Of a DNA stretch of 64,000 nucleotides, positions 5,071-31,524 are shown piece after piece. The position numbers and the translations under genes are program-made. The DNA is from Anaerotruncus massiliensis (ex Togo et al. 2026) (GTDB taxonomy: Bacteria; Bacillota; Clostridia; Oscillospirales; Ruminococcaceae). Numbering within the stretch: the first letter of the stretch is position 1; every line of letters starts with the position of its first letter. Location: NCBI RefSeq assembly GCF_900199635.1, contig NZ_LT962687.1:32501-96500 (forward strand), given 5' to 3'. The notes under the pieces were generated by a model. It saw only the letters and a program-made list of their open reading frames with translations, made no database searches and was not told the origin of the DNA.

Positions 5071-6546
5071 ATGGAAGAACGGTATCTGCTGGAACTGCGC
5101 GGCGTCAGCCGCCGCATCAGCAGCGAATTTTATCTGCGGGGGATCAACCTCGCGCTGCGCCCCGGCGAGGTGCACGCGCTGGTGGGGCGCAACGCCTCGG
5201 GCAAAAGCACCCTCTTTTCCACGATCATGGGCGTTTTTACGCCCGACAGAGGGCAGGTGCTGATCGACGGGCAGCCCGCCGAGATCCGAAACACCTCCGA
5301 CGCGGTCAAAAACGGGCTGATCCTTGTGGCGCAGCACCAGCAGATGTTTGCGAACCTGCCGGTCTATGAGAACCTCTTTTTCGGCAACGAGCTGCGCATG
5401 GGCGGCAAGCTCGGGCTGGTGGACAACAGGCGGATGCTCCACCGGTGCGAGGAGGTCTTCCGCCAGATGAACGTCCAGATCGACCCGCGCGCGCCGATGG
5501 GCAACCTCACCGACGCGGAACGCCAGCTCACGGCGATCGCCCGCGCGATCGTCACCGACGGGCGGATCATCCTGCTGGACGAGCCCTCCACCCACCTCAA
5601 CGAGAGCGAAAAGCAGCGGCTTTACGACGCGATTGCCGGGCTCAAGCAGGAGGGCCGCGCCTTCCTGATCATTTCCCACGACCTGAACGAGGTGCTCGCG
5701 GTCGCGGACACGATCTCGGTCATGGAGGACGGGGAGATCGTGCGCAGCGCGCCCGCCGGTGAATTCGACGAGAAGGCGCTGATTGAGGCGGTCTACGGCA
5801 TCAAGTCGGAAAACATCTATTACCGCGAGCGTCCGGAGGCCGGGAAGGAGGTCCTGCGCCTCGAGGACTTCTCGGGGCCGAACTTCTCCGGCGTGAGCCT
5901 TTCGCTGCGCGCCGGGCAGGTGACCGCGTTCATGGGCGGCGCCCAGTCGGGCAAGCTCAGCGTCGCGCGCAGCCTCGCGGGACTCGGAAAGACGACGGGG
6001 AAAATCTTCTTAAACGGCGCCCCGCTGGAGATTCCCTCGCCGATCACGGCGGTGCGGGCGGGCATCGTGCTCGCCTCCAGCCAGGAGGACGAGGAGGAGA
6101 TCCGCGAAAGCGAGATCGCGGTCAACGCGGGCAAGCAGGACACCTCCGCCAGCCGCATGGCAATCTCCGCCAAACGGCTGATGGCCAGCGTGGGCAAGGC
6201 CCTCGGCAACTACGTCATGCTCCGGCCGCAGCAGGAGTACATCACGGGCGGCAACCGCCAACGGGAGCTGGTGGAACGCGCGATGCGCAAGCAGGCGTTC
6301 GTCTACCTGCTCTGCGAGCCGACCGCCGGCGTGGACATCCCCGCGAAAATGCGGCTCTATTTTGAGATGAACAAGCTCCTCCAGAAGGGCGCGGCCGTCC
6401 TCTGGCTCACCGCCGACATCGACGAGGCGTTCGGCCTCTGCGACAACATCGCCGTCATGCGGGATGGCGGGCTCGCGCTGAGCGGCTCCGCCGCCGAGCT
6501 TTCCCGCGGGGCGGTGCAGGAGGCGATCGGGGCAGCCGCTCAGTGA
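5071..6546 (+). CDS. Sugar-type ABC transporter ATPase (two NBDs), orphan
   Basis: A 491-residue tandem ATPase of the RbsA/MglA type. NBD1: Walker A GRNASGKST (39-47), Q-loop near VAQHQQ, signature LTDAERQ (146-152), Walker B ILLDEPS (167-173), H-loop ISHD (201-204). NBD2 is degenerate: Walker A is GGAQSGKLS (289-297), with Leu in place of Ser/Thr after the Lys, signature TGGNRQR (392-398), Walker B LLCEP (413-417). One degenerate site is known in this family. No permease or solute-binding gene is adjacent. ATG 5071 has GGGGAGTAGGG upstream; an in-frame codon at 5056 lacks a site. The stop codon TGA lies inside the palindrome CCGCTCAGTGAGCGG that opens the following repeat region. Confidence 0.85.
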   Translation: MEERYLLELRGVSRRISSEFYLRGINLALRPGEVHALVGRNASGKSTLFSTIMGVFTPDRGQVLIDGQPAEIRNTSDAVKNGLILVAQHQQMFANLPVYENLFFGNELRMGGKLGLVDNRRMLHRCEEVFRQMNVQIDPRAPMGNLTDAERQLTAIARAIVTDGRIILLDEPSTHLNESEKQRLYDAIAGLKQEGRAFLIISHDLNEVLAVADTISVMEDGEIVRSAPAGEFDEKALIEAVYGIKSENIYYRERPEAGKEVLRLEDFSGPNFSGVSLSLRAGQVTAFMGGAQSGKLSVARSLAGLGKTTGKIFLNGAPLEIPSPITAVRAGIVLASSQEDEEEIRESEIAVNAGKQDTSASRMAISAKRLMASVGKALGNYVMLRPQQEYITGGNRQRELVERAMRKQAFVYLLCEPTAGVDIPAKMRLYFEMNKLLQKGAAVLWLTADIDEAFGLCDNIAVMRDGGLALSGSAAELSRGAVQEAIGAAAQ

Positions 6547-7557
6547 GCGGAGGAAGTTGTCGGTAGTCGACCGACAGCGAGTTCCTTTCTTGCTTGCCCA
6601 AGAAAGGAACCAAAGAAGGGCACGAGGGGCTTAGGCGGCCTGCCCGGGCTGCGCCCGGAGCGCGCTACGCGCGACGGCCGATCTCCGGCCTAAGAGCCGC
6701 CTTCGGCGGTTGGCCTCCGAAACGCGGTCTGCGGACCGCAGTCGCGGGCGCTCCGCCCCGCGACCCCGGCTTGAGTCCGCTTCGCGGACCCGGCCCTGCG
6801 GGCCGGATTCTCTACAAGGATGGCCTGCGGCCAAATCCCTGCGACCCCAACGCCGCCTCCGGTTGGCCTGCGGCCAAAGTCGGCGGCGCCCGGTTCACGG
6901 ATCAATAGGCAAGTTTACCGCATCCCGCCCGCCGCCGCGCCGCGGGCGCAATGCCTCTGCCCGAGAGTCTCCGGAACCGTACCGGGAGTGCTTCCGGGGA
7001 GACACGCGTAGCACACCATGCGCATGTTAGGAGCGCCGCCCACGGGCGGCGCTCCTTTTTGGCAGCTCTCCTGTTCCTGTGTTGGGAGCGCCCGCAACCT
7101 GAATTGAGCCCTCAGCTGGTGTACCTGTGGGGAGTGACGGTAGTCTGCGGGTACTGGCAAGGTACTCCCGGGGGTTTCTCAAGGGGACTGGCGGAAGTCC
7201 CCTTGAGCGCCCTTCTTCCGCCGACTTCTTGGGCGCGCAAGAAGTCGGCCCGCCCGCCGGGGCGGGTCCCGGCAATCTCCGCTGCCGAAGGCGGCACATC
7301 TGGAGCGCCCCGGAGGGGCGCGTAAAAAGGCGCTCTGCCCGCAGGGCGGAAAATTGAAAACCGCCGTGCGATGAGCGGCAAATCCAAAACATGGCCCCGG
7401 GGCGGGACCCGGCAATCCCCGCCGCCGAAGGCGGCACAACCAGAGCACCCCGCCCGCAGGGCGGCAGATCCATTGGGAAGAACCACCGAAATCTGCATGT
7501 CCGGAAGGCTCATCCTGCAAAAAAACGGCGAATTTGCCTCCCAAAGGGAGAATAAGA
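6534..7557. repeat. Spacer repeat region A (modular hairpin element)
   Basis: About 1 kb without a credible gene. From left to right it contains: the two-hairpin repeat (CCGCTCAGTGAGCGG then GTCGGTAGTCGACCGAC, 6534-6574); a long stem GTTCCTTTCTTG/CAAGAAAGGAAC (6580-6610); the hairpin-cluster element shared with regions B and C (about 6630-6995); a terminator (7030-7059); a block of about 60 bp (7081-7142) shared almost exactly with region C; and two inverted copies of the approximately 110-bp repeat (about 7240-7350 and 7360-7480). Six-frame reading frames here are all overprinted on palindromes. Confidence 0.75.
7030..7059 (+). terminator. Strong terminator inside spacer A
   Basis: AGGAGCGCCGCCC pairs with GGCGGCGCTCCT and is followed by TTTTT. 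It lies about 480 bases after the end of the ABC gene, so it would end a long untranslated tail or an RNA from the repeat element. Confidence 0.7.
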
Positions 7558-13650: not shown

Positions 13651-14248
13651 TTTTTTGCCGCCCGGGGAGCGGCGGAGTTCCTCCTGGGGGTTTCCGCCCG
13701 AGGGGCGGAGGGTTTTTTCGCGTCTCGTAGAGACGCTCTGAATGAGCCGCCTTTGGCGGCGGGGATTGCCGGGTCCCACCGGCAGGGGGCCTCCATGGGC
13801 TTGCCGCTCAGTGAGCGGCAGAGTTGCCGGGTCCCGCCCCGGCGGGCGGCCCCATTTCTTGTGCGGACAAGAAATGGGGGAAAGAAGCCGCAGGGGGCTT
13901 GGGCGGCCTGCCCGGGCTGCGCCTGGAGCGCGCTACGCGCGACGGCCGCTCGCGGGCGCTCCGCCCCGCGACCCCGGCTTGAGTCCGCTTCGCGGACCCG
14001 GCCCTGTGGGCCGGATTCTCTATAAGGATGGCCTGCGGCCAAATCTCCTTGACCCCCGCGCCGCCTCCAGTTGGCCTTCGGCCAAAGTCGGCGGCACCCT
14101 GCCACGGATGAACGGACGGGTGTACAGCAACCCGCCCGCCGCCGCGCCACGGGCGCAATGCCTCTGCCGGCGAGTCTCCGGAACCGTATCGGTAGTTCCC
14201 ATAGGGGAGGCACGTCCGCTTTTGCGTGGCGCGCAGCGCCCGCGGGGA

Positions 14249-14323
14249 GGCGGAAAACTGCGCGGCTTCGCCGCGCACGCGCGCAAGGCGCGCGAACGCC
14301 CGGAACGGGCGTTGTTTTCCGCC
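14249..14323 (+). repeat. 75-nt perfect four-way-junction element, copy 1
   Basis: Every base is accounted for. The outer stem is GGCGGAAAAC (14249-14258) with GTTTTCCGCC (14314-14323). Hairpin 1 is TGCGCGGC-TTC-GCCGCGCA, 8 bp (14259-14277). Hairpin 2 is CGCGCGC-AAG-GCGCGCG, 7 bp (14278-14294). Hairpin 3 is AACGCCCG-GAA-CGGGCGTT, 8 bp (14295-14313). There are no unpaired bases at the junction. Two more copies exist at 28463-28537 (reverse) and 31450-31524. Confidence 0.85.
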
Positions 14324-14390
14324 GGGCGGTTTTGCCGAGCCTTCCGGCAGCCGTTGTTGGGAGAACGGAATCTGCCATATCAAAAGAGGC

Positions 14391-14416
14391 CGTCCAGTCG
14401 GACGGCCTCTTTTTTA
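14391..14416 (+). terminator. Terminator at the end of spacer B
   Basis: AAAAGAGGCCGTCC pairs with GGACGGCCTCTTTTTT around AGTC. It is well formed and points with the element, suggesting the repeat region is transcribed left to right. Confidence 0.8.
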
Positions 14417-16551: not shown

Positions 16552-17934
16552 ATGAAGATGTGGGCGGGACGGTTTTCCAAAGAGGTCGACGACCGGGTAA
16601 ACGACTTCAATTCCTCCATCCGGTTCGACTGCCGGATGTATGAGCAGGATATCAAGGGCTCGCTGGCGCACGCCGCGATGCTCGCGGCGCAGGGGATCAT
16701 CCCGCAGGAGGACGCGGACGCGATCGCGCAGGGGCTCGAGGGCATCCTCGCGGATCTAAAAAGCGGCGCGCTCGTCTTCGACCCCGGCGCGGAGGACATC
16801 CACATGTTCGTCGAGGCGGAGCTCACAAAGCGGATCGGCGGCGCGGGAAAGCGCCTGCACACCGCGCGCAGCCGCAACGACCAGGTCGCGCTCGACCTGC
16901 GGCTGACGCTGCGGGAGGAGGCAAAGGAGATCAAAGCCCTGCTGCTCGCGCTCATTTCGGAGCTGCGTGACCGGGCGGCGGAGCACCTCGACACGGTCAT
17001 GCCCGGCTACACCCATTTGCAGCGGGCGCAGCCGGTGACCTTCGCCCACCACCTGGCGGCCTACGCCAGCATGTTTTCGCGCGACGTGGGGCGGGTGTCC
17101 GACGCGGCGGGGCGGATGGAATTCTGTCCGCTCGGCTCGGGTGCGCTCGCCGGGACGACCTACCCGATCGACCGGCAGCGGACGGCGGCGGCGCTCGGCT
17201 TTACGGCCCCGACGGCCAACTCGCTCGACGGGGTGTCCGACCGGGACTTCTGCATCGAGCTGGCGAATGCGATCGCGGTCATCATGATGCACCTGTCGCG
17301 CTTTTCGGAGGAGATCGTGGCGTGGTGCTCGTGGGAATTCAAGTTCATCGAGCTTGACGACGCCTTTGCGACCGGGTCGTCGATCATGCCGCAGAAGAAA
17401 AACCCCGACGTGGCCGAGCTGGTGCGCGGCAAGACGGGGCGGGTCTACGGCGATCTGATGACGCTGCTCACGATGATGAAGGGGCTTCCGCTCGCCTATA
17501 ACAAGGATATGCAGGAGGACAAGGAGGCCGTCTTCGACGCGGTGGACACGGTGAAGCTCTGCCTCAAGACCTTCACGCCGATGCTCCACACGATGACGGT
17601 GTTAAAGGAAAACATGCGCGCGGCGGCGGCGAAGGGGTTCATCAACGCGACCGACTGCGCCGACTACCTGACCAAGAAGGGGGTTCCCTTCCGCGACGCA
17701 TACAAGATCACCGGCGGGCTGGTGGCGGAGTGCATCCGCCGGGGACTGACGCTGGAAACCCTGCCGCTGGAGGACTACCGGGCGGCGAGCGGGGTCTTCG
17801 CGGAGGACGTGTACGGCGCGATCAACCTGGAAACCTGCGTGAAGGGCCGGCTCAGCGAGGGCGGGCCGTCGCCCGACGCGGTGAAAAAACAGCTTGCGCT
17901 GATCGCAAAGTTTTTGGAAGAGAACCAAAACTAA
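16552..17934 (+). CDS. argH: Argininosuccinate lyase
   Basis: A 460-residue fumarase-superfamily lyase splitting argininosuccinate into arginine and fumarate. Family blocks are all present: the N-terminal WAGRFSK, SRNDQVA (107-113), TH-LQRAQP around H155, and the signature loop GSSIMPQKKNP (275-285) carrying the catalytic Ser. It lies 90 bases after argG. The last codons and stop sit in a palindrome, CCAAAAC-TAAA-GTTTTGG (17925-17942), that opens the next spacer repeat, so the TAA is in the loop. Confidence 0.97.
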   Translation: MKMWAGRFSKEVDDRVNDFNSSIRFDCRMYEQDIKGSLAHAAMLAAQGIIPQEDADAIAQGLEGILADLKSGALVFDPGAEDIHMFVEAELTKRIGGAGKRLHTARSRNDQVALDLRLTLREEAKEIKALLLALISELRDRAAEHLDTVMPGYTHLQRAQPVTFAHHLAAYASMFSRDVGRVSDAAGRMEFCPLGSGALAGTTYPIDRQRTAAALGFTAPTANSLDGVSDRDFCIELANAIAVIMMHLSRFSEEIVAWCSWEFKFIELDDAFATGSSIMPQKKNPDVAELVRGKTGRVYGDLMTLLTMMKGLPLAYNKDMQEDKEAVFDAVDTVKLCLKTFTPMLHTMTVLKENMRAAAAKGFINATDCADYLTKKGVPFRDAYKITGGLVAECIRRGLTLETLPLEDYRAASGVFAEDVYGAINLETCVKGRLSEGGPSPDAVKKQLALIAKFLEENQN

Positions 17935-18046
17935 AGTTTTGGTCAAGCTTTTTCAAAAGCTTGCGGGTTGTCAGGGCGGGGCCCTGACACGCGGCGCGCA
18001 CGCCGCAAGATGCTTTGCCCCCGGACCCCACGGCCTTTGAAAAGGC
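17925..18046 (+). repeat. Chain of hairpins between argH and argC
   Basis: Consecutive hairpins: CCAAAAC/GTTTTGG around the argH stop (17925-17942); CAAGCTTTT/AAAAGCTTG (17944-17963); TCAGGGC-GGG-GCCCTGA (17971-17987); GCGGCG-CGCA-CGCCGC (17991-18006); and GGCCTTT/AAAGGCC (about 18030-18046). The central part recurs between argB and argD (21544-21635) with one hairpin rewritten by paired changes. Confidence 0.75.
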
Positions 18047-21466: not shown

Positions 21467-21543
21467 GGGACGCGCCGCGACGCCGCGCGCGCGTCCCGTG
21501 AGGATAAAGTTTTCGCCCGCTTTTTCACACACGGCCCGTGAGA

Positions 21544-21694
21544 CTAAAATTTTCGCCCGCCTTTTATAAAAGGCGGCGGGTTGTCAGGGCGGAGCCCTGA
21601 CGCGCGGCGCGCACGCCGCAAGACGCCTTGTCCTTCAAGCGGATTTTGGAAAAGGGTGTGGGGAAACCTTTTACAAGACAAAAGGTTTCCCCAC
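21544..21694 (+). repeat. Chain of hairpins between argB and argD
   Basis: CGCCTTTT/AAAAGGCG, TCAGGGC-GGA-GCCCTGA and GCGGCG-CGCA-CGCCGC repeat the argH-argC chain. A separate hairpin follows: GTGGGGAAACCTTT (21658-21671) with AAAGGTTTCCCCAC (21681-21694), ending 20 bases before the argD start. The last hairpin has no T tract but could affect argD expression. Confidence 0.7.
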
Positions 21695-27807: not shown

Positions 27808-28462
27808 TTTGCCGCTCAGGGGCTTGTCGGCTGCCCGCCGGCAGGGGCCTTCTTAGGTTTGCCGCTCGGAGAGCGGTGGAGCTTGTCGGGTCCCGCCCCG
27901 GCGGCGGTTTTGGATTTGCCGCGCTGCGCCCGGCGGGACTTTTTATCGCGCCCCTTCGGGGCGCTCCAGATGTGCCGCCTTCGGCGGCGGAGATTGCCGG
28001 GTCCCGCCCCGGCGGGCGGTTTTAGATTTGCCGCGTTGCGCCCGGCAAGCCTTTTACGCGCCCCTCCGGGGCGCTTTAGGGGAGCCGCCTTTGGCGGCGG
28101 GGATTGCCGGGACCCGCCCCGGCGGTGGTTTTGGATTTGCCGCGCTGCGACGGCCCGCAGGCCTAGTGCCGGAGGCGTGTCCCGCCGACGGCCGCCCGGC
28201 GAGGCTATCACGGGAATTGCCGCCCGTGGGCGGCAAGAAATACGAGCGCGTTCCGCCGCGCGGCACGGGTTCCTTTTCGGACGGACGAAAAGGAACGAAA
28301 AGTCCGCCTAAGGGGGGCTCCACCGCCCCCTTAGATATCCCCTGGAGAACCTTGCCATAACCCGCAGGTTACCGCCGCTCCCCACAGGTACACCAGCTGA
28401 GGGCTCAATTCAGGTTGCGGGCGCTCCCAACGACCGAAGCCGGATAGCTCGCCATAATCCAC

Positions 28463-28537
28463 AGCGGAAAACAACGCCCGTTTCGGGCGTTCGCGCGCTC
28501 CGCGCGCGTGCGCGGCGAAGCCGCGCAGTTTTCCGCC
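28463..28537 (-). repeat. 75-nt perfect four-way-junction element, copy 2
   Basis: On the minus strand: outer stem GGCGGAAAAC / GTTTTCCGCT (last pair G-T), hairpins TGCGCGGC-TTC-GCCGCGCA, CGCGCGC-GGA-GCGCGCG and AACGCCCG-AAA-CGGGCGTT. Stem lengths 10/8/7/8 and 3-nt loops are identical to the other copies; only loops and one terminal base differ from copy 1. Confidence 0.85.
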
Positions 28538-28974
28538 TCCGCGTGGGCGCTGCGCGCCATGCAAAAGCGGCCGTGCCTCCCCACAAGCACCCCCGGTACG
28601 GTTCCGGGGGCTCGCCGGCAGAGGCATTGCGCCTGCGGCGCGGCGGCGGGCGGGATGCTGTAGGCTTGCTCGCTGATCCGTGACAGGGTGCCGCCGACTT
28701 TGGCCGAAGGCCAACCGGAGGCGGCGTTGGGGTCGCAGGGATTTGGCCGCAGGCCATCCTTGTAGAGAATCCGGCCCGCAGGGCCGGGTCTGCGAAGCGG
28801 ACTCAAGCCGGGGGCGCGGGGCGGAGCGCCCGCGAGCGGCCGTCGCGCGTAGCGCGCTCCGGGCGCAGCCCGGGCAGGCCGCCCAAGCCCCCTGCGGCTT
28901 CTTTCCCCCATTTCTTGTCCGTATAAGAAATGGGGCCGCCCGCCGTGGCGGGACCCGGCAAACTATACCGCTCA

Positions 28975-29154
28975 CTGAGCGGTGAACCTAAGGTCCGCCG
29001 TCGGTCGACTACCGACAGGCCCTCCGCCCCCGGGGCGGAATATCTAAAACGGCCGTCGGTCGACTACCGACAAACTCCGCCGATCACTGAGCGGATAATC
29101 TAAACCCGCCGTCGGCCGGCCACCGACAAGCTCCGCCGCTCCCCGAGCGGCAAA
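28975..29154 (-). repeat. Tandem array of two-hairpin repeats
   Basis: The hairpin GTCGGTCGACTACCGAC occurs at 29000-29016 and 29055-29071, and a variant GTCGGCCGGCCACCGAC at 29111-29127 (periods 55 and 56). Each alternates with a second hairpin of variable arms (CCGCTCACTGAGCGG, CCGCCCCCGGGGCGG, CCGATCACTGAGCGG, CCGCTCCCCGAGCGG) and a linker like ATCTAAA. The arms change together and stay complementary. Confidence 0.78.
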
Positions 29155-31449: not shown

Positions 31450-31524
31450 GGCGGAAAACCGGGCGGCGGAGCCGCCCGCGCGCGCTTCGCGCGCGGACGC
31501 GCCTGCGGCGCGTCGTTTTCCGCC
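31450..31524 (+). repeat. 75-nt perfect four-way-junction element, copy 3 (solitary)
   Basis: Outer stem GGCGGAAAAC (31450-31459) / GTTTTCCGCC (31515-31524). Hairpins are CGGGCGGC-GGA-GCCGCCCG (31460-31478), CGCGCGC-TTC-GCGCGCG (31479-31495) and GACGCGCC-TGC-GGCGCGTC (31496-31514). The lengths match the other copies exactly, but hairpins 1 and 3 have different arms that remain fully paired. It lies outside the large spacer elements. Confidence 0.85.

Follow-up and report, generated by a model that had tools for sequence, protein, structure and literature searches.

A dispersed intergenic element with the fold of a perfect four-way junction, possibly kept as a DNA shape across genera

Introduction

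What kind of element is a sequence of 75 nucleotides that recurs in a single bacterial genome and folds along its entire length into a junction of four stems? The question is raised by a stretch of DNA of 64 kb (the window, by which we mean the whole stretch that was analysed), for which a preliminary description had reported three such copies, had taken their pattern as selection on structure, and had offered three readings of them, namely a structured RNA, a DNA cruciform, and a miniature mobile unit. The observation itself, that of 75-nt copies folding into a four-way junction, is confirmed here. Of the readings offered, the DNA cruciform or miniature mobile unit fits the data best and the structured RNA least, and we lean, with a little more confidence than doubt, towards a DNA element that is conserved through its fold, consisting of an outer stem and three hairpins which together make up a perfect four-way junction of ~75–95 nt. 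In the sections below, we discuss the copies in the window, their distribution and variation in the source genome, the recurrence of the architecture in other genera, and the explanations that compete for it.

The three copies and their fold

Copy 1 occupies positions 14249–14323 on the forward strand (loops TTC, AAG, and GAA), copy 2 positions 28463–28537 on the reverse strand (loops TTC, GGA, and AAA), and copy 3 positions 31450–31524 on the forward strand (loops GGA, TTC, and TGC). All three were thus correctly located in the preliminary description, and each is laid out as 10 / 8-3-8 / 7-3-7 / 8-3-8 / 10, that is, as two outer arms enclosing three hairpins. The complete four-way fold that had been claimed for them is borne out: copies 1 and 3, when folded as single-stranded DNA, have all of their bases paired except the three loops, and in copy 2 the outermost pair is G·T, so that the arm measures 9 bp in the DNA fold. 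The DNA-fold z-scores of copies 1, 2, and 3 are −7.4, −6.9, and −6.3, respectively, and were equalled by none of 200 shuffles of each copy. A sequence-blind junction finder run over the 64-kb window returned exactly these three sites, all of them four-way, and found no three-way or five-way junctions there. In its strict form, the finder requires a perfect outer stem of at least 7 pairs and two or more inner hairpins, also perfect, of at least 5 pairs with loops of 3–6 nt, separated by at most one base.

Two of the copies, each located between convergent genes, belong to a larger mosaic intergenic repeat, the relevant parts of which, as defined by the inverted-repeat pairs I1 and I3, lie at 13824–14322 on the forward strand (holding copy 1) and at 28464–28961 on the reverse strand (holding copy 2). 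These parts form an inverted duplicated block, with 13824–14192 matching 28593–28961 at 92% and 14204–14322 matching 28464–28582 at 93%. Since copies 1 and 2 are paralogous members of one duplicated block, the window provides two independent cases instead of three, and the three copies, which had been put forward as evidence, are weak evidence on their own. Copy 3 stands alone; according to the gene calls, its start is 8 nt past the stop codon of a gene for a GNAT acetyltransferase, and the DNA polymerase I gene lies downstream.

A paralogue of the mosaic repeat at 6626–7186 on the forward strand, identified by the pairs I2, I4, I5, and I9 and by alignment, is devoid of the element, and the slot that the element would occupy is taken by a simple hairpin followed by a T-run (7030–7060, forward strand), as is also the case at locus L138. 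The mosaic repeat as a whole, which covers 6536–7500, 13700–14400, and 27930–29090 of the window, is large, comprises many palindromic modules, and is spread across the genome.

Copies across the genome and their surroundings

The source genome, G000, comprises 3.15 Mb in 7 contigs and is 98.75% complete. It contains 44 places in which the arms GCGGAAAAC...GTTTTCCGC occur at the right distance from each other, against none for a reversed control pattern, and 48 distinct places are found by a covariance model (R1), for which 24 copies were used. The union of the two sets amounts to 50 copies, so that a lack of further copies in the rest of the genome, which the preliminary description had named as refuting it, was not observed. 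The majority (37) are embedded, meaning that their flank is common to at least five other copies as part of the mosaic repeat, and 13 are stand-alone, with a flank common to at most four others and, for 7 of the 13, to none. This split, 37/13 by the flank rule, varies slightly with the list used, the lists of gene contexts and of mismatches holding 33/16 and 34/15 embedded and stand-alone copies, respectively, and the diversity analysis 31 embedded ones.

Several observations concern the mosaic repeat itself. The embedded copy at locus L034 is inverted in orientation relative to the repeat module; at locus L111 (C7:679658–682821) the element is truncated, its first arm and first hairpin remaining joined to the right flank; and at L130, L137, and L139, element-less left modules of the repeat adjoin what appear by eye to be putative small helix-turn-helix regulator genes. 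A covariation fold of the left 200 nt of the repeat proved unconvincing. When one 294-nt piece was used as the query against 10 congeners, the repeat was absent except for a 27-nt match in G004. As for the ends of the element, GGCGGAAAAC occurs at 166 sites in the source genome against 27 for its reversed control, which exceeds what the paired copies account for, and some of these sites may be coding.

The element is dispersed between genes. By the calls of a retrained home-made gene caller, from which all gene contexts derive, none of 49 copies lies within a called gene, only 2 of the 48 copies for which both neighbours were called are flanked by divergent genes, and 10 of the 13 stand-alone loci are situated at most 90 nt from the 3' end of a gene. 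Of the 44 copies on the main contig (C7), a single one falls within its middle 37% (1.015–2.125 Mb), and the GC skew of the neighbouring genes has a mean of +0.025 over the 25 loci below 1.1 Mb and of −0.021 over the 17 loci above 2.0 Mb; the change of sign, together with the gap in copies, suggests that the origin is near the contig ends and that the terminus region is poor in copies.

Congeners retain the genes that flank the stand-alone loci L040 and L041, and the unaligned inter-gene stretches of G007 and G010 measure 52 and 49 nt at one of the two loci (208 and 199 nt here) and 49 and 37 nt at the other (235 and 221 nt here); this gap in length is evidence of an insertion or expansion in this lineage and not of a clean empty site, and no clean empty site for the element was found elsewhere. 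The 13 stand-alone copies show no target duplication of 4 nt or longer (one has 3 nt and two have 2 nt), and no inward GGCGGAAAAC pair spaced 0.7–3 kb apart, which could mark an autonomous partner, was seen by eye among the 100 places listed. The Y1 transposase profile PF01797 found nothing in G000 at E ≤ 0.001, and 5 of 14 control genomes were matched by it. With no clean empty site, no target duplication of that length, no partner among the places listed, and no Y1 transposase match in G000, the mobilising step is without a candidate.

Variation among the copies

Pairwise diversity among 31 embedded copies amounts to 0.019 in the outer arms, 0.044–0.062 in the stems, and 0.22–0.42 in the loops, with 0.13 in the left flank and 0.33 in the right. 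Diversity is therefore lower in the stems than in the flanks and high in the loops, which indicates that the stems are better kept and that the loops are free. On identical stems, the loops also flip between reverse complements (TTC/GAA and TGC/GCA).

Over the 1121 pairs of 34 embedded copies, read on the reference strand, there are 13 G·T or T·G mismatches, 14 A·C or C·A mismatches, and one G·G mismatch. The preliminary description had named arms that mutate independently as what would speak against it, and this is half borne out, in that the 27 G·T or A·C pairs and the one G·G of the embedded copies are mostly uncompensated. As G·T is as rare as A·C, there is no preference for a strand that would tolerate G·U. 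The greatest differences in sequence and length are seen among the stand-alone copies, which have a middle stem of 7 to 11 pairs and retain near-complete pairing; four of them (L010, L046, L048, and L049) were poorly split by the stem parser.

Recurrence of the architecture in other genera

The preliminary description had pointed to related genomes as the place to look for further copies, and the same sequence was not found there: R1 gave no match in 40 relatives, including 10 congeners. Wider searches, in which 12 candidates were scored per genome, gave one weak R1 place among 393 further genomes of the order and two among a further 395 of the family. When 84,980 species, each represented by one genome, were scanned for the exact arms, 53 single matches were obtained, which contained 0 four-way junctions and scored at most 31 bits with R1. 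Among viral contigs, the arms of the element gave 2 matches and those of genus g40 (see below) gave 4, the latter not being junctions, and plasmid and phage records held no match to copy 1 or to a copy from G719. The covariance models of Rfam 15 gave no match at the gathering score over the three window copies, nor over four 20-kb junction-bearing stretches of G719 and G297, and one further search gave only weak, chance-like matches. As far as an S10-Clostridia leader in the window can show, the source genome is one of the Clostridia.

The architecture does recur, with unrelated sequence. The weak R1 places in G282 and G719, which belong to genus g40, are perfect four-way junctions that have no arm or stem in common with the window element. 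The strict finder gave 42 junctions in 390,924 bp of G719, 5 in 400 kb of G282, and 8 in 400 kb of G297 (also g40), some of the sampled stretches having been picked for a known match (G282 C19, G719 C26, and G297 C4 and C16). It gave 0 in 400 kb of the congener G004, in 400 kb of G000 picked away from the known copies, in two shuffles each of the G282, G004, G719, and G000 samples, and in 391,524 bp from loci of 53 unrelated genomes. The strict junctions of G719, G297, G282, and the window, 58 in number, are all four-way, with exactly three inner hairpins and 0–1 base between them. Under relaxed limits, four-way junctions number 44 in G719, 5 in G282, 11 in G297, and 1 in the G000 sample, and three-way junctions appear at 4 sites (one in G282, one in G297, and two in G000), the 6-pair arms of which look like chance.

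A second covariance model (R2), built from the finds in G000, G719, and G282, matched 6 of 396 genomes of the family, and two of these, G297 and G160 (the latter of genus g34), were newly found and confirmed as four-way. The R2 matches in G667 and at one of two places in G282 showed no junction when checked. In 60 kb of G160 picked to contain the verified locus, that locus is the sole junction.

The g40 elements were also captured independently. The outer arms GGGCGNAGCCC...GGGCTNCGCCC alone retrieved 49, 6, and 4 stretches in the three g40 samples, and every one of the 59 could be parsed as three hairpins with no more than 3 mismatches (45 of them perfectly); of the 53 chance arm pairs the same parser accepted 1, and of 49 shuffled interiors none. 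The mismatches in the captured stretches comprise 6 G·T and 5 A·C. Compensation between genera is near-strictly Watson–Crick: in a cross-genus alignment of G000, G719, and G282 (A4), 477 cells are altered on both sides, and G·U accounts for 3 of 1539 cells. The covariation score of A4 is 0.806, against 0.172 for shuffles and at most 0.083 for slid structures, a score that leans toward the structure because the alignment was fitted to it and some elements are represented in it by both strands.

With regard to their surroundings, 5 of the 42 G719 junctions lie between divergent genes and 5 between convergent ones, and 8 of 10 neighbours scanned have a Pfam match (ATP synthase a, YpeB, sigma-70, PhoU, and malic enzyme among them), with no transposase. 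In the G719 samples (L252–L271), some junctions are arranged in tandem units ~300–410 bp apart, as in L269 at 1480, 1886, and 2294. Candidate empty sites within the repeats of G719 itself were not clean.

Loop sequences

In genera g40 and g34, the junctions follow a loop rule, according to which their triloops are GNA or TNC closed by C-G. This applies to 42 of 43 distinct triloops in G719, 15 of 15 in G282, 15 of 18 in G297, and 3 of 3 in G160, which for the four genomes combined makes 75 of 79, all closed by C-G. In G000, where copies with mismatches other than wobble pairs were left out of the count, only 22 of the 46 distinct triloops are GNA or TNC, and 19 of the 22 are closed by C-G. Control triloops are GNA or TNC in 10 of 90 cases in G004, 13 of 68 in the unrelated loci, 18 of 127 in the G000 sample, and 11 of 34 in the window, and off the junctions in 32 of 104 cases in G719, 22 of 79 in G297, and 11 of 72 in G282.

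The two loop types are mixed on one strand in 31 of 56 elements, so that no single RNA strand has all of the favoured loops; in a double-stranded cruciform, one member of each pair is always present. The tetraloops frequently have the form GNNA or TNNC; GNRA-like ones, which RNA too would favour, also occur. Minihairpins of the type d(C-GNA-G) are known to be extremely stable as DNA. Hirao 1994 and Yoshizawa 1997 appear in the reference list of PMC11101458, and the second also in that of PMC7432603.

Interpretation and competing explanations

If the element is indeed conserved as folded DNA, strand separation, be it on the lagging strand in replication or through negative supercoiling, would let it fold in vivo, and the folded form would be a cloverleaf or a double cloverleaf cruciform, aided by the very stable GNA minihairpin tips. 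A protein recognising the shape of the junction, and not its letters, could then act on the folded element and mobilise it in trans, by which copies would spread to intergenic sites, somewhat in the manner of REPINs (see below); at a later stage, ordinary recombination would also carry copies within larger mosaic repeats. Beyond this, we propose, with somewhat more doubt than belief, an undescribed class of bacterial repeats that would be inherited and would spread as a DNA shape, a GNA-capped four-way (Holliday-like) junction served by a structure-reading protein, with fast sequence turnover and unrelated families in each genome. Against the reading as a DNA fold count the weakness of the loop rule in G000 (only 22 of 46 triloops), the position of 37 of the 50 copies inside a larger repeat, and the uncompensated mismatches.

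The strongest rival, to which we give a real if minor chance, is neutral palindrome correction, in which template switching during replication (quasipalindrome correction) perfects and flips intergenic hairpins, and a multi-hairpin repeat so formed is copied by recombination. Palindrome correction could keep the arms matched without selection, and it agrees with loops that change and flip on identical stems, with the contrast in diversity between loops on the one hand and stems, outer arms, and flanks on the other, and with the enrichment of triloop hairpins in the window outside the element too (32 intergenic perfect hairpins with a 3-nt loop and a stem of at least 7, the element included, against 1.2 in shuffles). 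What such a process does not account for is the presence of exactly three inner hairpins in all strict junctions and the recurrence in three genera with unrelated stems. That structure is kept over sequence is borne out both in G000 and in other genera; selection on structure, as claimed in the preliminary description, is not yet set apart from neutral palindrome correction. We think it unlikely, more so than the neutral origin, that the element is a structured RNA or a bidirectional terminator at gene ends, formed by hairpin 3 and GTTTT on one strand and by hairpin 1 and GTTTT on the other. The closeness of stand-alone copies to gene 3' ends, the rarity of copies between divergent genes, the simple hairpin with a T-run in the slot of the paralogue, a variant (L048) that ends with nine T, and the GNRA-like tetraloops would all suit such a role; yet the reference strand shows G·T about as often as A·C (13 vs 14 in the embedded copies and 6 vs 5 in g40), a terminator scan asking for 5 T in 8 did not call copies 1 and 3, the element having only GTTTT, divergent and convergent contexts are equal in G719, and Rfam gave no match at gathering. 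The g40 arms (GGGCTTCGCCC), moreover, are without a T-run, which makes a terminator unlikely for the class.

Membership of the REP/REPIN family, with mobilisation by a RAYT, we consider highly improbable, although there is a likeness: as described in PMC3116915, REPINs too are short, extragenic, multi-copy, and species-specific, with conserved ends, a variable paired middle, and compensatory changes. A REPIN, however, consists of a single long hairpin that has REP motifs and goes together with a RAYT, whereas the element is a perfect four-way junction in which neither a single-hairpin nor a REP motif was seen, and its families in separate genera have no sequence in common. By eye, the ends are GGCGGAAAAC in G000 or mostly GGGCGAAGCCC-like in g40, without the GTAG/CGTC tag given in PMC3733652, and the absence of a Y1_Tnp match makes a RAYT unlikely for G000.

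Relation to known repeats and significance

Returning to the element as conserved DNA, its short, non-coding nature, inverted ends, and many copies recall MITEs, from which it differs in that none of its 13 stand-alone copies has a target duplication reaching 4 nt, in being paired over its whole length, and in having no partner among the matches listed. Some MITE families are themselves without a target site duplication. AAV-type hairpin telomeres, which are branched DNA palindromes with tiny loops that are read as folded DNA, share with the element the folded palindrome; they are three-way, located at genome ends, and read by a Rep protein, and no relation to the element is claimed. Like the GTAG/CGTC-tagged REPs and the BIMEs, the element belongs to the dispersed extragenic palindromes that occur partly in mosaics (PMC3733652; for BIMEs, PMC2817692), but the tagged REPs are single stem-loops of 20–40 bp plus a tag, and the element has three hairpins within an outer stem over 75–95 nt. 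The LIMP palindromes of Lobosphaera mitochondria are likewise dispersed, have been proposed to form DNA cruciforms, and carry their loop in either orientation; they differ in being a single hairpin made up of pentanucleotide repeats, the 7-nt loop of which is invariant (PMC4524435). A description of four-way-junction repeats was not found in the literature, in a search that lay largely outside subscription journals.

Dispersed extragenic palindromes are thus known, yet they are sequence-defined, whereas the elements described here differ in sequence and keep a constant topology across three genera. Repeat catalogues based on sequence similarity would miss such elements. Should the DNA reading be true, the families would amount to naturally occurring sets of folded four-way junctions in which compensatory mutations are already built in, and both cruciform formation in living bacteria and the proteins that read it would become directly testable.

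Apart from the element and the mosaic repeat, the window contains a separate 91-nt direct repeat at 17930–18020 and 21543–21633, the two units of which have 82% identity.
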